A DNA stretch of 64,000 nt, from positions 620,001-684,000 of the forward strand of contig MCGT01000008.1 in NCBI GenBank assembly GCA_002104935.1, given 5' to 3'. The first letter of the stretch is position 1; each line of letters starts with the position of its first letter. The notes beneath the pieces are model-generated. The model had not been told where the DNA came from, ran no database searches, and saw nothing but the letters and a program-made list of their open reading frames with translations. The translations under genes were made by a program, and so were the position numbers. The DNA comes from Hesseltinella vesiculosa (taxonomy: Eukaryota; Mucoromycota; Mucoromycetes; Mucorales; Cunninghamellaceae). This document shows, in pieces, positions 24,425 to 54,795 of this stretch.

Positions 24425-25126
24425 GATTATGAATGCTTATGTACTTTTATGACGAAAATGGAGAAGCCGCAAGCGCCCTAAAAAAAAAACAAACGAATAT
24501 ATAAACAAAGCATTTGAAACTCCGTGGTACGAGCTTTGAGAAGAAAAAAACAGCGCACTATAGAAAATTTGAGAAGAAAAAACAGCGCAACCAATCAAAT
24601 AGCCAGCTGCATATGCGTTACTAAGCGCACTAACATGACCCGCTTGCAGAAAAGAATTTGTCGCATCTTTCTGCAAAGCATGTTATTTTTACCACCTTGG
24701 ATTTATAGACCAAACATGGTAAGGCATAGGGAGAGGCATGCGTGAAATAGACAGGGTGGTATGGATAGTCGCAATTTCTTCAATCTGGAGCATTTTTGTT
24801 TAGCTGAGGATGACTCTGGGGCCTGAATTTTTTTTTTCGTGGTTTGGTTTGCCAGGCAGTGTTAAGTTTTTATTTAAGAAGCACAGTAAAATGAGCAATA
24901 GAGATAGGCAAAGAGTGTTACCTTTATCATTGATGGTACGCTACTTCATTTTATATTTCAAAAAGAAAGGTACGTTGTAAAAAAAGGGCTAAGGATGTGA
25001 TTGGCGGTCATTCTCGCTGGCATTGGCAAAGGTTTGATCATCCGCAACACGCGATTCTTTTTTTTTTGTTTGTTTATCTAGGTTCTTCTATCTTTTTTAT
25101 TTTTGCTCATTTTCTATCTATCCCTG
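24425..25126. other. Spacer between CWF18 and Fanzor start
   Basis: About 700 bp. It includes the CWF18 promoter, a short direct duplication (tgagaagaaaaaaacagcgca twice near 24536-24590) and, before the Fanzor ATG, a T run followed by TTTATCTAG that could be a 5' UTR acceptor. No transposase gene or terminal inverted repeat was recognised. Confidence 0.45.
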
Positions 25127-28100
25127 ATGCAATCGCTTCCTCAAGCCGTCTACGAAACTCTGTGCCACATCCCTGAAGAAGATTTCCGCCGGGCATTGCC
25201 TGATCTGTTGGATCAAGCTTGGATGACCACCGAACAAATCTACACTGTTTGGTCACAAGCAAAAGTCTATCGCAAACGTAAGTCATCCATCACTTCAATC
25301 ATGTCTTTTTCTTTACCCATCTTCGTAGGACGGGAAACTGGGCCCACGCCACAACGACGTGCCCAACAACAGGAACAAAACGATCGCGCCGAGGGGAGAC
25401 GGCAGCGCCAAGAAGATGAGCGAAATCCTGATGCTGTGGGACCGTGTGCCACATGCGGCCAAATGGGACACTGTTCGTCTGCCAGCCGCCTTTGTCCTTT
25501 CCATCGCATGAACAAGAAGGATTGCATCAACGAAATGATGCCAGGTGGTGAGTGCTACACGATAAAAAAAAGCTTTGAAGCGCAACATAGAGTCGACCAG
25601 CGCCTGCAACAAGAACATCCTTTTCCGCCTCCAATTATTTCTCAACCATTTCGCTCTCACCCACCCGTCTGACTTTAAAAGCATCATGATCAGCCAGAAC
25701 GGTCTCCTGTCCATCTCGCAACTCGTCTATCCCCGCAACCCGCGTCGACCAGGGATGACCAACGCTCATGTCCTACGAAGCCTTCCTCCCACCTTCCTGC
25801 CTCACTGGAACCAGTTTGTCCGTGACCACCCGAACATCACCTACAGCCCCAACGACCACCAAGGCATGGGTCCGCTCGACAATGCAGCCCTTCTCATTCC
25901 TGCTGATCACCGCAGCCTTCACTTCCACCACCCGCATAAATTCTATGCAAATACTTTTGGGCCATGCTTGTCAACGCTTGCCACAGCTTACTCCAATTGT
26001 TTGGTGATCGACTTTGAGAAAAAGGTCAAGAAGTATATTCGATTCTCCTTTGCCATCACGGATCTCAGCGTAGGTTTTATAAAAAAAAAAAGAATCAAAA
26101 AAGGGATATGTTCTGACTTTTTTTTTGTCTCTTTCAGATCCCTCACATGACCGGCAGGTGGATGATATCTACACGAGCTTTGCAGAGAGACCTTCCCATC
26201 CTCAATCAGGGGTCACACCTGGATCGGTCACAAGCAATGTCCCTGGTGTGTCTACCGAAGAAGCGGCCATTGCCAGTGTGAAGGCGAAAACACTGGCCTT
26301 GAAACCCCACTACGTTGGCAAATTGACGTCGACAACCCTGTCCCGATACCCCAGCAGTGCCTTGCTTGTCTACATCAACATCAACAAGCACTACGAGCAA
26401 TACAAGTGCCAGCCCAATGCCAACCCTAAAAAATGCCCGAAGCTTACCATCCTTCCTGAGCCTCACTTTGGACGCCGATTCATCCCCATCTTACCCGACA
26501 CGATCAAATATCTAGCCGAATGCGATGCCATTGAAACAAACAACGACAACTCTGATGTACCCAACGCCGCATTCATCCGTGCCTTGCCCATGTTTTTCAA
26601 GGTGTTCCACATGGAGAAGTTCAACTTTGGCGGGCCTGGGTTCGGGAGGCAAGTTTTGCAGACATCAAAAAAAAAAAACACCTTCCAACATTTTTGTTCT
26701 TCTTCTCGCTTAGTGTCCAGGACATGCTTGAGGGAGTACAACTCAACTGTCCATTGTTTGCTTGCCACATTTGGTGCGATGGTGTTTCGTGCTGCTTTGA
26801 ATTTGTTCGCTTGCCAACCATGCATCGCCCAACGATGAAGCTGCCCAGCCTGGACCACTGGGATACCGAACTGGTAGAACGCTTCGATATGGTCGCCGTC
26901 GATCCAGGCCACCGTGCCATCGTCACCGGAAGCTATGGCACACCTTATCCACTTTCTATGCTCCCTGAAACCCGGGATGACGAAGACTCTGCAGGGGAAG
27001 GTGAACCCGATAACGATAATGACGAAGAACAAATGGCTATCGACACCCCATGTCCTATTCGTACTGCTCAGCCTGCACATCAACGTCAGGACTTTGACAA
27101 CGCCACTGGCAGCACTGATATGGAACAAGGAAATCTCTCTATGCCTATGATTGACGATGCCGATCCTACCACCCCGATCCCCCAGTCTCACCATCTGCCT
27201 TACCGAGTCATCAAAGTTTCTGCAAAGGAATACCGCTCGCAATGTGGAACGCAGCGACGAATCCAACAATTGGAACGACGCAAGGTTTCCACAACATACT
27301 CCTTCCGAGGTCAGCAAATACCGTTCCATCAGATGGAAGCCGCCATCCCTTCCCACCAAACCACCAGCCCCACTGAATATGCCACACGAATCCAGTACCT
27401 GCTTGATCGTCTCCCGATCTTTTTCGACTTTTATGGCCTCCAGCACTCCATCGACCGCTTCAATGCTTACAGAGGGCGTCAGCGGGGCGTGGCATACGTT
27501 GCCAGTGTTCTTGCTGGCCTGTCCAAGAAGTATGTCAAGTCCCAGCGCAATGTGCGCGGCCACCGTAAGCGTACCCACCGCAATCGGCGCAAGCGTCAGA
27601 AGAAAGCTCGGAAGAAAAGGGCCATCAGGATCAGCAAGGCCAAGGAGGCGATGCGAAAACACCTTGCTGCAATGGACATGGCAATAACGAAGATCGAAGA
27701 TTTGCTGAAATGCAGTGCTGGTTTGATATTGCATGGGACGGTGGATCTATGGGAAGCAACATTACATACCATGCGCACCCAACGCGACCTGGACCGTGAC
27801 CACCGCATTGATCTGATCAATGAAATGGAAGAAAAGAGGCAAGTCGCCGTGGTATTCAGGAGGTCCAGGTGGGCTTATTTTTCCATTGTAGACCTGCGCC
27901 GCAAATGAAGCCAAGTACACGTCTTCTTCACGGTGTGACAAAGTTTCCCAGCGAAAGAGTTCCATTAATACTCTTTGGTGATGACCTCAAGGGCCGGAAG
28001 GTCGCCGCCCCGCTCAAAAAGCAGCTTCCTAGCTCGTCTTCCCTGGTGTTTGACCAATTGGAAAACCGACAACGTCAGGGCAAGCTTGCTGTTATCTCAC

Positions 28101-28401
28101 TGAATGAGTTCAAAACAAGCAAGGTGGGTGAAAAAAAAAGGCATGGCAACCGCAACGAAGTGGTTCATTCTCTTTCTTTATGCAGCTCTGCTCTGTCTGC
28201 CATGGCCCAACCAAAAACCCAGTCATGAATGGGGGCAAGATTTATGGACTTCTGCGCTGCAGCTCCTGTGCGGCCATCTTTGACCGGGATGTCATGGCAG
28301 CTTGCAACATGATCTCCATTGGTCAACACTTTTCCCAACACAAGCAACGCCCCCTGGCCTTTTGCCCGCGCCGACGCCCCCAAACCTCTCCTATCGTTTA
28401 G
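25127..28401 (+). CDS. Fanzor: eukaryotic TnpB-like RNA-guided nuclease, apparently intact (970 aa)
   Basis: Seven exons: 25127-25277, 25329-25547, 25591-26069, 26158-26648, 26714-27838, 27892-28123, 28186-28401 (2913 nt, one stop). An N-terminal Cys/His cluster (Cys90-His109: CATCGQMGHCSSASRLCPFH) precedes a helical region. RuvC-I is FDMVAVDPGHR with Asp510, followed by an acidic insert (~540-570) and a very basic stretch (~722-760: RKRTHRNRRKRQKKARKKR) that may bind RNA or act as NLS. LNEFKTSK supplies Glu894, the rearranged RuvC-II glutamate described for Fanzors. A four-Cys ribbon (CSVC 901-904, CSSC 924-927) leads into FDRDVMAACNM with Asp934 (RuvC-III). All three catalytic acids are therefore present. 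Two introns (26649-26713, 27839-27891) are GC-AG with perfect AG|GCAAGT donors. Intron 2 is only 43 nt and is the least certain join. Confidence 0.88.
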
Positions 28402-28560
28402 TTTTCATTTTTATTCACCAAAGCAACCCCGCAAAAAGGGTTACCGTCTGCTCTGGCAAGAACGCGTTTAATGCTTTTATCCGGTAATTGGTGTTTTTAG
28501 CCAACACTTAACACAAGTTCTGATTGGTAACGGAGTTTTCTTTTTTTCCATAGTGGGAGC
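28402..28560 (+). other. Candidate guide-RNA (omega-RNA) region 3' of Fanzor
   Basis: In TnpB and Fanzor loci the guide RNA usually overlaps or follows the 3' end of the nuclease gene. Here a small hairpin (aaccc/gggtt, 28425-28442) and a further structured-looking stretch to ~28560 follow the stop. This is position-based inference; no boundary is visible. Confidence 0.25.
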
Positions 28561-28734
28561 TTGATGCCAAATGCTGAACATGAAATCAGTAGGAAAATGC
28601 AATGGTTCCAGCCTCAAATCACTTGGCACTGTCTTGTATAGATACCATGCTTTAATAACAACGTCTCGTCTCCCACATGTTTGTACCTATGCGAAACGTC
28701 GGTGTCATACATATAAGAGTTTTGCCACGGCTTT

Positions 28735-28965
28735 CAAATTTACAGTACCGGTGTTAAGAATCGACAATGCACTCTCCTTCGGCGTCTCTTTTTTTTCCCT
28801 TCCTTCTCTTTACCTTTTCCCTTCTCTGCCCCTTTCTTCTCTTCTTTTCTTTCTTCTTCTTTTTTCCTCGCTCTCTTTCTTTTTCTTTTCTTCGTCCGCA
28901 CGCATACTAAAACCACTCGCTTACAGTGGTAACTCTATTTGTTAATCTCTAATAGTGCACTAACT
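28735..28965 (+). repeat. Dispersed short element with polypyrimidine core (copy 1)
   Basis: Begins ttacagtaccggtgttaagaa, contains ~130 nt of almost pure C/T (28785-28910) and ends with aaaaccact.gcttacagtgg and taatagtgcactaac. The same ends with a purine (opposite strand) core occur in reverse at 50890-51110. It has no coding capacity. Confidence 0.7.
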
Positions 28966-29154
28966 CCCCAATAAAGGTTTTATTATACCGTTTTCTTTTT
29001 TCCTTTTTTTTCAAATCACAGTCATAATTGACTCAGATAAACACCGGTACCAGTGCAGTATTTTTTGTGATGATTGGCGCGCAGGATAAAGATTTTAGCA
29101 GGCAAAATAAATTTGAGTGCACGCAAACGCGCCAACCATCACTAAAAATTCTGT

Positions 29155-29660: not shown

Positions 29661-30540
29661 AAAAAAAAAGTTTCTCCGATCAGCTTCACATTTGGCATGG
29701 TGATAGTAGGTGACAAGTGATGATGATGGCTAAAATTTAAGCCTTGATGGATCACTCATTGACGAGCTAGAGCTGCTTACTTTTTTTTTTTTCTCGAAAA
29801 AAAGAGTTCCTCCGATCAGCTTCATGTTTGGCATGGTGAAAGTAGGTGACAAGTGATGATGATGGCTAAAATTTAAGCCTTGATAGGTCACTGGATGGTG
29901 ATCTGGAGAGTAGACAACCAGATGGAATGGCTTCCCTAGGAATCGAACGCATATATGCGGGCTTTCAAAAAAATTGGCAGGTCAATACGAAAAAAAAAAA
30001 AAATCAACAAAAAAAAAAGACATAAACAAGTTGAAAAAAGAGGGTCATACGGGGGAAACCAACATTTCCATAATAAGAATAGCTACCTGATTTAGTAACA
30101 AAAATAATCGTGAGCGATATATTTTTCTTTATATGGGACGTGGATTTTTTGAAAAAATACTTTCCTAGAAAGTATAATTGACACTTTTATGGAAAGTATT
30201 TTTTCAAAAAATCCACGTCCCATATAAAGAAAAATATATCGCTCACGATTATTTTTGTTACTAAATCAGGTAGCTATTCTTATTATGGAAATGTTGGTTT
30301 CCCCCGTATGACCCTCTTTTTTCAACTCGTTATGGCAATTTTTTTTGTTTTTTTTTTCATACTGGCCCGCCAATTTTTATTTTTTTTGCTGATCTAGTGC
30401 TGGTTACTTTTTTTTTGAAAAAAAAAAAAAATCTTCCGATCAGCTTCACATTTGGCATGGTGATAGTAGGCGATAAATGATGATCATAGTAAAAATCTTA
30501 GTCTTGATGGATAACTCAATGACGAGCTAGACACTTTCAG
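29540..30540. repeat. Tandem ~135-bp units, interrupted by a fold-back insertion
   Basis: Four copies of a unit reading tccgatcagcttcacatttg, gcatggtgatagtaggtga and gatggatcactcattgacga occur near 29540, 29675, 29812 and 30430. The last is separated from the third by the palindrome at 29968-30380, suggesting insertion into a pre-existing tandem array. Confidence 0.7.
29968..30380. mobile_element. MITE-like palindrome with near-perfect ~135-bp arms
   Basis: The sequence from 30030 (gttgaaaaaagagggtcata) to ~30165 is repeated as its exact reverse complement from ~30190 to 30325, around a ~25-nt centre. Weaker inverted similarity (attggcaggtcaatacg / catactggcccgccaat) extends the ends to about 29968 and 30380. 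Perfect arms imply recent insertion or ongoing conversion. It encodes nothing. Confidence 0.85.
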
Positions 30541-31470
30541 CAAAAAAGTGTTGGGCGGCTTGGATACATGGCTAAAAGCACGCGAAGTTTTGCCCAAAAA
30601 AAATAAAATGCTTGGCCCACACTTTCAGCAAAAATCCATGGGCGGCATAATGCTTGGCTAAAAACATGCGAAGTTTCGCCCAAAAAAATAAAACGTTTAG
30701 CCCGCACTTTCAGCAAAAAAGTGTTGGGCGGCTTGAATTAGCCTAAAAACATGCGAAGATCCACCAAAAAAAATAAAAACGTTTAGCCTGCACTTTCAGC
30801 AATAAAATACTGGGCGGCTTGGATACAGGCTAAAAACATGCGAAGATTCACCCAAAAAAATAAAACGTTTAGCCCACACTTTCAGCAAAAAAGTGTTGGG
30901 CGGCTTGGATACAGGCTAAAAACATGCGAGGAATCGCCCAAAAAAAAATAAAATGCTTGGCCCACACTTTCAGCAAAAAAATGTTGGGCGGCTTGGTTAC
31001 ATGGCTAAAAAGATGAAAAGTTTTGCCCTAAAAAAATGAAAATACTTGGCCCATACTTTCAGCAAAAAAGTGTTGGGCGGCTTGGATACATGGCTAAAAA
31101 CATGAGAAGTTCCGCCCAAAAAATTAAAACGTTAACCCACACTTTCAGCAAAAAAATGCTGGGCGGCTTAAATTCAGGCTCAAAAACATGCGAAGCTTCG
31201 CCCAAAAAAAATGAAAATACTTGGCCCACACTTTCAGCAAAAAAGTGTTGGGCGGCTTGGATGCATGGCTAAAATCATGCGAAGTTTCGCCCAAAAAAAA
31301 TAAAATGTTTGGCTCACAGTTTCAGCAAAAAATGATGGGCGGCTTTAATTCAGGGTCTAAAAGCATGCGACGTTTTGCCCAAAAAAAATAAAATGTTTGG
31401 CTCACACTTCCAGCAAAAAAATGCTGGGCGGCTTGAATGCATGGCTAAAAATATGCAAAGCTACGCACCT
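30533..31470. repeat. Satellite array, 11 copies of an 85-90 bp unit
   Basis: The motif actttcagcaaaaaagtgtt starts near 30533, 30621, 30706, 30792, 30878, 30965, 31055, 31141, 31230, 31317 and 31405. Each unit continues gggcggctt, catggctaaaaacatgcgaa and tcgcccaaaaaaaataaaa. Units differ by point changes and A-run length. No long ORF runs through the array. Confidence 0.92.
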
Positions 31471-31686: not shown

Positions 31687-31867
31687 GGAATACCTAAAAA
31701 AAAAGCGCTGCAAGTTTTTTTTTTCTTTGGCCGGCAAGCGAAAACGGTGGTTTACGATGATAAGGTACAAGTGGATAAGTTTATTACAGAGTTATCTGTT
31801 ACAAAAAAAAGAAAAAAGAAAATATTTTTTTATAGAAATGATAGGGCTTCTTGTCAGAAGACCTAAA

Positions 31868-32266
31868 ATTCTAGTACCCAGGCTTAATCTCAACACCTCG
31901 TAGCAACAAAGGCTACTCAACTGCTTACAATACCCGGTAAATTTGGTATCGTCTGTACCCGATTTGAAGGAGAATTACCATGGCAATTTGCTTGAAGCAC
32001 AGACTGCTAACCACATTTCCGTAATTAACAATCAAGCACCTATGGTTCACTGGACAATAAATGCCCATATTTTTATCCTAAAAGATAAATTCCCCGTAAT
32101 AAAAGCTATGTTTCCAGCATGGATTCCAACTTAGAGGCGTTCAGCTGTTATCCAGCAGATGGTAGCTTCGCGCCATTGACCGTTCGATCAGGCGCAAATA
32201 CTAATTATCTGAATGAAGGGTTCCTCTCGTACTAACTTCAATTACTGTTACATAACCAATTAACAT

Positions 32267-32302
<36 letters not shown>

Positions 32303-32426
32303 TGCCCAGCTCGCGTTCCCTATTAGTGGGTGAACAATCCAACGCTTACTGAATTCTGCTTCAGTATGATAGGAAGAGCCGACATCGAAGAATCAAAAAG
32401 CGACGTCGCTGTGAACGCTTGGCCCC

Positions 32427-32461
<35 letters not shown>

Positions 32462-32788
32462 GCACCTCTAGGCGAAAATCTTTCGCGTCTAAAGGATCGA
32501 TAGGCCACACTTTCATGGTTTGTCTTCACACTGAAAAGCAAAATCAAGGGAGCTTTTGCCCTTTTACTCTACGTGAGATTTCTGTTCTCACTGAGCTCCC
32601 TTAGGACACCTGCGTTATTGTTTAACAGATGTGCCGCCCCAGCCAAACTCCCCACTTGACGGTGTTGGAAACAAAAGTCAACTGCCGAAACAATCTTAAT
32701 GCTAGAACGCCCGGTTTCCCGGAACCTTTCTTCACTTCCTAAGTAGCATGCGACTTTAATTTCGATTGCCCAGCGACATCAATTGTTG
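31868..32788 (-). rRNA. Nuclear large-subunit rRNA, 3' fragment (~0.9 kb)
   Basis: The minus strand reads conserved 25S/28S 3' sequence: GGGGAGTTTGGCTGGGGCGG, TTACCACAGGGATAACTGGC, the sarcin-ricin loop AGTACGAGAGGAACC, GCTACCATCTGCTGGATAAC-like text and TGAGATTAAGCCT near the 3' end. Only the 3' portion is present, and no 18S or 5.8S is in the window. The fragment begins about 18 nt beyond the stop codon of the neighbouring gene at 32806, on the same strand. It is presumably a dispersed rDNA piece rather than a working unit. Confidence 0.93.
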
Positions 32789-32805
32789 GAAGCACTGTAC
32801 TGCAT

Positions 32806-33954
32806 TTAACGCCGAAATTTGCTGTGGCTTCTGACGAACACTGGGATCAAGGCAGCAAAAGCGAGGCCAAAAAGACAGGCAATATTCCGGGGAGTGAATA
32901 TGCTCAGCTTATCAGATGATGACAGTCTGTCCAATGCTGCGCCTGCTTGGATCTGAATAAATGACAAAGGGGCAACACCTACAAAAGTACCCCAAAAAAA
33001 GGTGGTCAACGATATGCCAAGGTGCGGCGCTCCAAGATTCACAACCCAATTGGGTGGTAGAGGAGAAATCCTCAAGACAATCATGTAATTAAACATGTGC
33101 TGTTTGTGGTGTACCAACTTTTATGTTGAAAAGGAGTGTGAGCCGCGCGTATTAATCAACAATTGTATAGCTTTAGATCTTGCCTGTTGGTTCCACTTTT
33201 CGATTCGTTCACCAAACAAATACACTACAGCTTTGGATCCCATTCTACTGGAGATAAGGAACGCCAGCGAGGCACCGATGGCTGAACACTGTCAAATAAT
33301 AGAGGTGAGCTAATGTTGGAAAATCGGAGCGAAGAATCTCAGTTTACCGCACACACTGTTAACAATGTCAACCAAAAATTAAACAGTGCGCCGCCTAGCA
33401 CAGACAACCACATTGACCCAGGAATAGAAAAGGTCTGCAGGCTGGTGGTTTTTTTTTTTTTTTTTTTTTTTTTTGGAACAAAGCGAGTGATGTGAGTCAA
33501 GACCATAATTTTCAACGCCAATGTCACACCAATGCATCCCCAACGATCACTTACTATAGAAAGCTGGTAACAAACGTGACATATACATTGAAAAAATGCT
33601 GGTCAATGTACTGTGAAAGCACCTGATGCAGATGGTAGAGATCTTCCAGGTTTCTTGGTATCTTGACAGCCTCTCGGTCCGCTCTACAAAGACAGAGGGA
33701 GAGGGGATTAAATGGAGTCGATGAAGAAGAGCCAAAAATGGCTATTACGGATCGATGGCGGGGAGATTGTAGCGCAGCAGTATGATTTGTAGAGAGGTAG
33801 CAATTGCAAGCAACGTCAATAGGCTGAGCAAAGAACAAAGGTATGAACGGCTTTTCCATAGCCGAAAAGGGGTACGTTCGTCTTTATGTTGTTGGGGTAT
33901 AGATGAATAGGTAGTTGGCGAAGTACAGGGTAACAATGGAGGAGTAGTGCTCAT
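32806..33954 (-). CDS. TMEM41-like VTT-domain membrane protein (paralogue A)
   Basis: Five exons (33954-33749, 33683-33555, 33441-33348, 33288-33184, 33099-32806) encode 275 aa. The DedA/VTT signature runs YLQTFSIPGSMWLSVLGGAL, then IGASLAFLISS, ERIEKWNQQ and YMIVLRISPLPPNWVVNLGA with FFWGTFVGVAPLSFIQIQAG. This matches TMEM41 proteins, ER scramblases that act in lipid distribution and autophagy in animals; fungal function is inferred. Intron 33100-33183 is GC-AG (CAG|GCAAGA). Intron 33442-33554 contains a 24-nt T run (A on sense). The 3' end is unusual: an rRNA fragment in sense orientation starts within ~20 nt of the stop. Confidence 0.92.
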
Positions 33955-53269: not shown

Positions 53270-54795
53270 CCAAACAAGCGATGTAAAAGACGACTGCCTT
53301 CAGGCCCATCGTCCTCATCATCTTTCCCACAGTTCCCAAGTGATGACAAAGACGACTGCCTTCAGGCCCATCGTCCTTCTCATCTTGCCCACAGTTCCAA
53401 ACAAGCGATGTCAAAGACGACTGCCTTCAGGCCCATCATCCTCATCATCTTGCCCACAGTTCCAAACAAGTGATGACAAAGACGACTGCCTTCAGGCCCA
53501 TCGTCCTCATCATCTTTCCCGCAGTTCCCAAGTGATGTCAAAGACGACTGCCTTCAGGCCCATCGTCCTTCTCATCTTGCCCACAGTTCCAAACAAGCGA
53601 TGTAAAAGACGACTGCCTTCAGGCCCATCGTCCTCATCATCATTCCCGCAGTTCCCAAGTGATGACAAAGACGACTGCCTTCAGGCCCATCGTCCTCATC
53701 ATCTTTCCCGCAGTTCCCAAGTGATGACAAAGACGACTGCCTTCAGGCCCATCGTCCTTCTCATCTTGCCCACAGTTCCAAACAAGCGATGTAAAAGACG
53801 ACTGCCTTCAGGCCCATCATCCTCATCATCTTGCCCACAGTTCCAAACAAGTGATGACAAAGACGACTGCCTTCAGGCCCATCGTCCTCATCATCTTTCC
53901 CGCAGTTCCCAAGTGATGTCAAAGACGACTGCCTTCAGGCCCATCGTCCTTCTCATCTTGCCCACAGTTCCAAACAAGTGATGACAAAGACGACTGCCTT
54001 CAGGCCCATCGTCCTCATCATCTTTCCCGCAGTTCCCAAGTGATGTCAAAGACGACTGCCTTCAGGCCCATCGTCCTTCTCATCTTGCCCACAGTTCCAA
54101 ACAAGCGATGTAAAAGACGACTGCCTTCAGGCCCATCGTCCTCATCATCTTTCCCACAGTTCCCAAGTGATGACAAAGACGACTGCCTTCAGGCCCATCG
54201 TCCTCATCATCTTGCCCACAGTTCCAAACAAGTGATGACAAAGACGACTGCCTTCAGGCCCATCGTCCTCATCATCTTGCCCACAGTTCCAAACAAGTGA
54301 TGACAAAGACGACTGCCTTCAGGCCCATCGTCCTCATCATCTTTCCCGCAGTTCCCAAGTGATGACAAAGACGACTGCCTTCAGGCCCATCGTCCTCATC
54401 ATCTTTCCCGCAGTTCCCAAGTGATGTCAAAGACGACTGCCTTCAGGCCCATCGTCCTTCTCATCTTGCCCACAGTTCCAAACAAGCGATGTAAAAGACG
54501 ACTGCCTTCAGGCCCATCGTCCTCATCATCATTCCCGCAGTTCCCAAGTGATGTCAAAGACGACTGCCTTCAGGCCCATCGTCCTCATCATCTAGCCCGC
54601 AGTTCCCAAGTGATGTCAAAGACGACTGCCTTCAGGCCCATCGTCCTTCTCATCTTGCCCACAGTTCCAAACAAGCGATGTCAAAGACGACTGCCTTCAG
54701 GCCCATCGTCCTCTTCATCTTGCCCACACTTCCAAACAAGCGATGTCAAAGACGACTGCCTTCAGGCACATCATCCTCGTTATCTTTTTTACCAA
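53270..54795. repeat. Minisatellite, ~24 copies of 62/65-bp units
   Basis: Every unit contains agacgactgccttcaggccc. Two types alternate irregularly: a 62-bp form with cagttcccaagtgatg and a 65-bp form with cagttccaaacaagcgatg. Both lengths are 2 mod 3, so each unit shifts the frame. All three plus-strand frames are free of stops in most units, giving ORFs up to 268 codons (53175-53981) whose translation cycles through three different peptides. Confidence 0.95.

Follow-up and report, generated by a model that had tools for sequence, protein, structure and literature searches.

The Fanzor-type gene at 25127-28401 of the window, by which we mean the whole 64,000-nucleotide stretch analysed here (620001-684000 of contig C78 in a 27.05-Mb, 85-contig assembly), most likely belongs to a decayed member of a multicopy Fanzor1-type transposon family without a transposase of its own, for which we propose RNA-guided cutting combined with a mover acting in trans. 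Fanzor is a eukaryotic cousin of the CRISPR enzymes. A locus that appears intact by gene model alone proves to be broken, with plausible but false splice sites hiding lesions that were revealed only through its sister copies. The 11 apparently intact, closely related Fanzor genes in one 27-Mb genome offer a natural setting for studying the role of Fanzor in its element, and a one-sided insertion pattern akin to two published Fanzor1 cases offers a testable connection between Fanzor and insertion.

Copy survey and probable decay of the window gene

The assembly looks fungal and is treated as such: its acetyl-CoA carboxylase fragment scores 907 and 880 bits against 5csk (yeast) and 5i6i (Chaetomium), compared with 775 bits for the entries that come next. 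A search of the assembly with positions 24600-29000 of the window as the query, whose copy counts are lower bounds, recovered at least 23 near-full-length copies of the Fanzor transposon, including the window copy, and many fragments besides. The 22 sister copies are 87-96% identical to the window copy. All 23 were oriented and aligned, and the gene model drawn from this alignment has six exons and five introns, with exons on the plus strand at 25127-25277 (the same in the 22 sisters), 25329-26069, 26138-26648, 26714-27838, 27892-28123, and 28186-28401. Under this family model, 12 of the 23 copies, all of them sisters of the window copy, are open to the normal stop and encode 999-1013 amino acids. 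Eleven combine the open frame with GT or GC donors, AG acceptors, and the full set of catalytic and zinc residues; the other open copy, L012, has an AT donor and an Asp in place of the catalytic Glu. With 11 of the 23 near-full-length copies looking intact, intactness is not the exception that the earlier note took it to be.

Across the 11 intact-looking copies, mean dN is 0.032 and mean dS is 0.129 (dN/dS 0.25), and the family gene was under purifying selection. Private changes amount to 71 nonsynonymous and 41 synonymous when pooled over these copies and to 16 and 3 in the window copy, compared with a neutral expectation, calculated from sites alone, of 3.4 to 1. The ratio in the window copy is not significantly off neutral (p 0.34), and its difference from the 11 intact-looking copies is not significant either (p 0.11). 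Nearest-neighbor distances are as low as 0.69% (L021 versus L022), and some copies are therefore young. Retroposition of spliced mRNA was rejected for the 23 copies, as none of them is intron-less. A distinct C-terminal version is common to L016, L017, L026, L027, and L028, which differ in their N-terminal backgrounds; this suggests recombination or gene conversion, and the copies look like mosaics of one another.

The window copy had been described as an intact gene with six introns. We reproduced a stop-free, seven-exon splice of 25127-28401, which gave 978 amino acids here and 970 in the earlier note (residue numbers in that note equal ours minus 8); two of its six introns begin with GC. 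The reported catalytic residues and ribbon are present, namely VAVDPGHR (515, with Asp518), LNEFKTSK (900, with Glu902), CxxC pairs at 909 and 932 (909-935), and DRDVMAACNM (940, with the RD Asp942). The gene structure itself failed in comparison with the sisters. When applied to these 22 copies, the seven-exon model's exons are broken in all of them, which makes the model suspect. Its second intron (25548-25590, 43 nt) aligns with 78 nt that are coding and in frame in the sisters (77 nt in L030, which is itself broken), and exon 2, in which this false intron lies, measures 776 nt in 21 of the 22 sisters and 775 nt in L030. The 78-nt stretch has 11 codon variants among the sisters, six of them synonymous, including every variant present in more than two copies, and it behaves as coding sequence.

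Two frameshifting losses account for the discrepancy. The window copy alone lacks 35 nt of coding sequence at 25571/25572 in exon 2, between short direct repeats, and it lacks 1 nt at 26147/26148 in exon 3 that is present in all 22 sisters. The family donor of the intron between these exons is at 26070 (GTAGGT or GTAAGT; ATAGGT in L012) and not at 26074. Since the losses add up to 36 nt, the frame is regained past the second lesion, and the seven-exon model gives the appearance of an open frame by bridging the two frameshifts with an extra intron and a donor displaced by 4 nt. Under the family model, the window copy has six premature stops, at codons 165, 167, 216, 243, 254, and 280, before the terminal stop. 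The six-intron model was rejected on the basis of this alignment, in which intron 2 is coding in 22 sisters and both losses are private to the window copy.

The window copy would still work if the cell bypassed both deletions by splicing out a new 43-nt intron and using a donor shifted 4 nt downstream, yielding the seven-exon protein without a short N-terminal stretch. We regard this as highly improbable. It is true that the frame stays open for 978 codons and that the new donor, GTGAGT in the window copy, is a better consensus than the GTGAGC of most sisters. However, two unusual splicing events would have to coincide with the 35- and 1-nt losses private to this copy, the donor at 26074 reads GTTTTA while the normal GTAGGT lies 4 nt upstream, and what would be spliced out is coding sequence in the sisters. 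A conserved motif also carries a private Gly-to-Asp change (GDD, compared with GDG in the 12 open sisters and in family B, described below). The window copy is very probably a pseudogene. A Fanzor-type gene with its catalytic residues does occur here, as had been proposed, but with a broken frame the locus loses its standing as a candidate for an active enzyme; the candidate would be the family.

Placement as a predicted Fanzor1-type protein

Fanzor proteins have been characterized by a fingerprint that consists of the DPG motif and a Glu located six residues ahead of the zinc ribbon (PMC10711439). The RuvC-I motif reads VAVDPG in the window copy and in all 12 open copies, and a Glu stands six residues before the first CxxC (EFKTSKLC) in the window copy and in 11 of the 12 open copies, with Asp in L012. 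Asp518 is encoded in exon 4 (codon 26901-26903), Glu902 in exon 5 (28106-28108), and the RD Asp942 (28288-28290) together with the zinc ribbon in exon 6. The spacings depart from a published Fanzor search pattern, which has 120-160 residues from DPG to Glu and 12-18 between the CxxC pairs (PMC10711439), compared with about 380 residues from Asp to Glu and CxxC pairs 19 apart here. These published spacings constitute a search pattern and not a definition, and large insertions would explain the spacing of about 380. The long motif given for Fanzor and TnpB, D-X(125,275)-[TS][TS]XX-C4-X(5,50)-RD (PMC3627910), fits in its order and in its TS, C4, and RD parts, with an Asp-to-TS spacing of 386 against a maximum of 275.

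In the seven-exon product, Pfam detects only the TNB (zinc-ribbon) domain, PF07282 (TnpB/Fanzor/Cas12f1 zinc ribbon), at residues 884-949 (36.3 bits against a cut-off of 26.3, E 6.2e-9). Matches to NCBIfam (IS607_TnpB, 0.0043; guided_TnpB, 0.0081; IS200_TnpB, 0.028) and PHROGs (phrog_506, 1.1e-5) are confined to the C-terminus as well, and lie below the curated cut-offs where such are given. Sequence comparison with solved structures did not reach any Fanzor1; hits with E < 0.1 were confined to TnpB-type proteins and covered the C-terminus, the best at 0.0012. No protein homologue was found at E 0.001 among 4330 candidates, a set assumed to be poor in eukaryotes.

The same genome contains a second Fanzor-like family with a DPG motif, family B (L001-L008, L036-L038, and L049). 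Aligned with hhalign, from profiles that are shallow and in which each family-B row consists of two open frames joined without a splice model, the Fanzor family and family B match over 415 columns (probability 96.3, E 1.8e-9), with DPG, GDG, the Glu or its neighbor, the zinc ribbon, and RD in register. The family-B frame gave no match to solved structures. Copies of family B have near-identical C-terminal scores on at least four contigs, and some contain a low-complexity insert of about 200 amino acids. A MULE-domain match (C1:1370485) lies 2.8 kb from one copy (C1:1367676), which may therefore sit in a MULE.

We predict that the gene, which is the sole long gene found in the 4-kb element, encodes a Fanzor1-type nuclease. 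Fanzor1 differs from Fanzor2 in being carried by a eukaryotic transposon and not by an IS607 element with a serine recombinase. It further encodes an N-terminal Cys/His cluster, PCATCGQMGHCSSASRLCPFHR (25442-25507), that shows few changes across the 12 open copies and is possibly a zinc knuckle. Two additions that the earlier note had called unusual, an acidic insert of 79 amino acids (residues 538-616; 26961-27197) and an Arg/Lys-rich block of 37 (residues 726-762; 27525-27635), do exist in the window copy. They are shared by all 12 open copies, with the insert 75-79 amino acids long, and are therefore features of the family.

Most Fz1 proteins have 600-700 amino acids (PMC11423790), compared with 999-1013 in the open copies here. 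SpuFz1 of Spizellomyces punctatus is likewise a fungal Fanzor1 with a D-E-D site (D383, E541, and D606; PMC10432273), and it is too divergent from the open copies for a direct sequence match. PpFz1 of Parasitella parasitica, another fungal Fanzor1, has a RuvC insertion of about 100 amino acids (FRI) that is comparable in size to the 79-amino-acid acidic insert; FRI is folded and binds cyclophilin (PMC11423790), whereas the insert here is acidic. In the literature on Fanzor in fungi, transposons, and Helitrons, with partial coverage of the journals, no title or abstract opening describes this family.

Element ends and the right-end region

The element is about 4.0 kb long and runs on the plus strand from CACTATAG at 24556 to CCATAGTG at 28555, ends that are common to the 22 other near-full-length copies. 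Its termini motif is CACTATGGAAAA. The left terminal inverted repeat is CACTATRGAAAA (24556-24567) and the right one is TTTTCCATAGTG (28544-28555), and L015 and L016 have a perfect 14-bp terminal inverted repeat, TCCACTATGGAAAA. All 23 copies retain the right end, whose last 8 bases are exactly CCATAGTG in 19; in 22 copies GA comes directly after it, compared with a GA frequency of 5.7% in the right flanks. Nine copies have a complete left terminus, among them the window copy with one changed letter. In the others the left end is shortened, in some at microhomology (TATG in L010, TATGG in L021), and that of L024 has filler resembling its flank. Ahead of the left terminus of the window copy are about 20 bp of filler (24535-24555) that resemble positions 24568-24588 of the element and form a direct repeat with them.

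Duplications of 10-12 bp starting with GA are found in L010, L011, L014, and L024, that is, in four of the 14 shortened-left copies and in none of the nine complete-left copies, a difference that is not significant (Fisher p 0.13). L020, L022, and L023 have 4-bp duplications, which could be due to chance. At the window copy, GAGCTT (28557-28562) has a partner about 20 bp to the left of 24556 and is a possible 6-bp target duplication, short enough for chance. Empty sites were sought with the joined flanks of all 23 copies (for 13 of them, among the best 40 of 59 candidates), and a match across the junction was found only for L013 among the candidates scored. A paralogous empty site (C2, L051) shows that this insertion replaced about 36-45 bp of target, and the loss of the right part is borne out by a second paralogue (C50, L052).

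The excess of right ends extends to fragments. A right-end query found at least 40 loci (40 of 42 candidates scored), 17 of them beyond the full copies, and a left-end query found 28. Four of the 17 extra right-end loci, including one on C26, also have a left end; right-only loci number 13 (14 with C85:260219) and left-only loci 2 (two-sided p 0.007 or 0.004). The 14-bp right terminus occurs with at most one mismatch at 55 sites, compared with 19 for a reversed control. The listed sites were compared with the known copies by eye, and C85:260219 alone was looked at further; an autonomous partner could be among the others. The C85 locus is a lone right end of about 67 bp (L039 2222-2288) situated about 110 bp upstream of the apparent start codon of a CDC48-type gene (CDC48_N 1.7e-11, AAA 1.6e-28). 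In the window, the start codon of a cwf18 splicing-factor gene (PF08315, 2.8e-18) has the element about 130 bp upstream of it (24424 versus 24556). Judging from the two sites looked at, insertion may favor the vicinity of promoters.

Downstream of the stop, 154 nt (28402-28555) are conserved and form a possible source of a guide RNA. Their pi is 0.040, compared with 0.077 for the last exon and 0.137 for the last intron, and the region is recognisable in old fragments. This conservation fits a guide RNA and would fit equally well if transposition requires the ends. Conservation of the left 540 bp is like that of the right end (pi 0.033), and right-end conservation therefore need not mean a guide RNA. 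Folding was not better than that of shuffled sequences (z 0.87 for 28402-28556 and 1.23 for 28330-28556), RNAalifold on 18 right-end sequences gave three pairs with no compensatory change, and Rfam found rRNA alone over the window.

Carrier and proposed mechanism

Mucorales elements with Fanzor1 were described in 2013 (MCi-2, MCi-4, MCi-5, ROr-4, and PBl-3), and resemble the family here in that they are multicopy, encode a fungal Fanzor1, and mostly have no complete transposase of their own (PMC3627910). MCi-2 has 11 copies, duplications of 11-12 bp with a fixed start, and "fuzzy" 5' ends. It differs in that it has no recognisable TIRs, whereas the best copies here have them, and in that its duplications follow ATAATTNNNN(N) whereas those here start with GA (PMC3627910). 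CRe-1, CRe-2, and CRe-3, the Fanzor1-bearing Helitron2 elements of Chlamydomonas, share with this family intact 3' ends, frequent 5' truncation, a multi-exon Fanzor1, duplications (7-19 bp) mainly in truncated copies, and extra sequence at left junctions (PMC3627910). They come from an alga, have ends common to verified Helitrons, and insert after TTTT (PMC3627910), whereas the family here has a target starting with GA and, in two copies, a symmetric TIR, and its ends are tied to no Helitron. The end pattern here is similar to that of the CRe elements and, in part, to that of MCi-2.

RNA-guided DNA cutting has been modeled on SpuFz1, GtFz1, and PpFz1 (PMC10432273, PMC11423790). By analogy with other Fanzors, the protein of intact members would bind an RNA transcribed from the right end of the element, with the guide portion of this RNA coming from the right flank as in those three proteins. 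The complex might then cut DNA that matches the guide, for instance a donor site left empty or an empty allele, and repair after the cut would restore or copy the element. Another protein would move the element in a one-sided process with the right end fixed and the left variable.

What kind of carrier this protein would move can be stated only tentatively. It is possible that the element is Helitron2-like and moves in trans by rolling-circle replication that begins at the right end and often stops early, which would leave left ends ragged and produce duplications; a published proposal for the CRe elements of Chlamydomonas is of this kind. Such replication is consistent with a right end in all 23 copies and a complete left terminus in nine, the filler and microhomology at left ends, the excess of right-only over left-only loci (13 to 2), the match to the description of CRe-1/2/3 (PMC3627910), and the confinement of the 10-12-bp duplications to shortened-left copies, although the last (4/14 versus 0/9, p 0.13) is not significant. 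The genome, however, has a single partial Helitron_like_N match, around which 9.9 kb contain no long Rep/Hel frame, and both the symmetric 14-bp TIR of L015 and L016, which departs from the published asymmetric arrangement, and the loss of target at L013 count against it. The perfect repeat in these two copies would instead suit an ordinary cut-and-paste transposon, for example a MULE-like one with TIRs and duplications of about 10 bp, in which gap repair or recombination among copies damaged the left ends afterwards; this too is a possibility that we hold with reserve. The 10-12-bp duplications in four of 23 copies, the 21 MULE-domain matches in the genome, the recombination suggested by the mosaic copies, and published fungal Fanzor1 elements with MuDR-like ends (PMC3627910) agree with it. 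Yet later damage should strike both ends alike, which contrasts with the retention of the right end in all 23 copies and of a complete left terminus in nine, L013 replaced about 36-45 bp of its target, and no MULE gene is tied to these termini. Among the matches to Helitron_like_N (1), MULE (21), and Transposase_21 (7) in the genome, none is tied to the element termini.

The one-sided signature is also seen in the CRe elements and MCi-2, whose termini differ, and Fanzor itself may therefore cause it. We consider this unlikely. In this reading, Fanzor would initiate insertion by cutting or nicking a GA site, the right end that would template the guide would be joined to the target first, and microhomology repair would close the left end. 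If true, Fanzor would be part of the insertion machinery and not merely a keeper of copy number.

Some further features of the genome and window are recorded here. The seven Transposase_21 matches are at C85:533881, C42:1886, C39:9070, C46:131037, C65:786, C5:656828, and C34:1239439; six lie less than 10 kb from a contig end, and the elements are perhaps subtelomeric. Within the window, Rfam identified a partial eukaryotic LSU rRNA at 31866-32832 on the minus strand, outside any visible rDNA array, which is possibly an rDNA fragment or pseudogene. Tandem arrays occupy 30531-31460 (86-bp unit, 10.6 copies) and 53275-54787 (127-bp unit, 11.9 copies).
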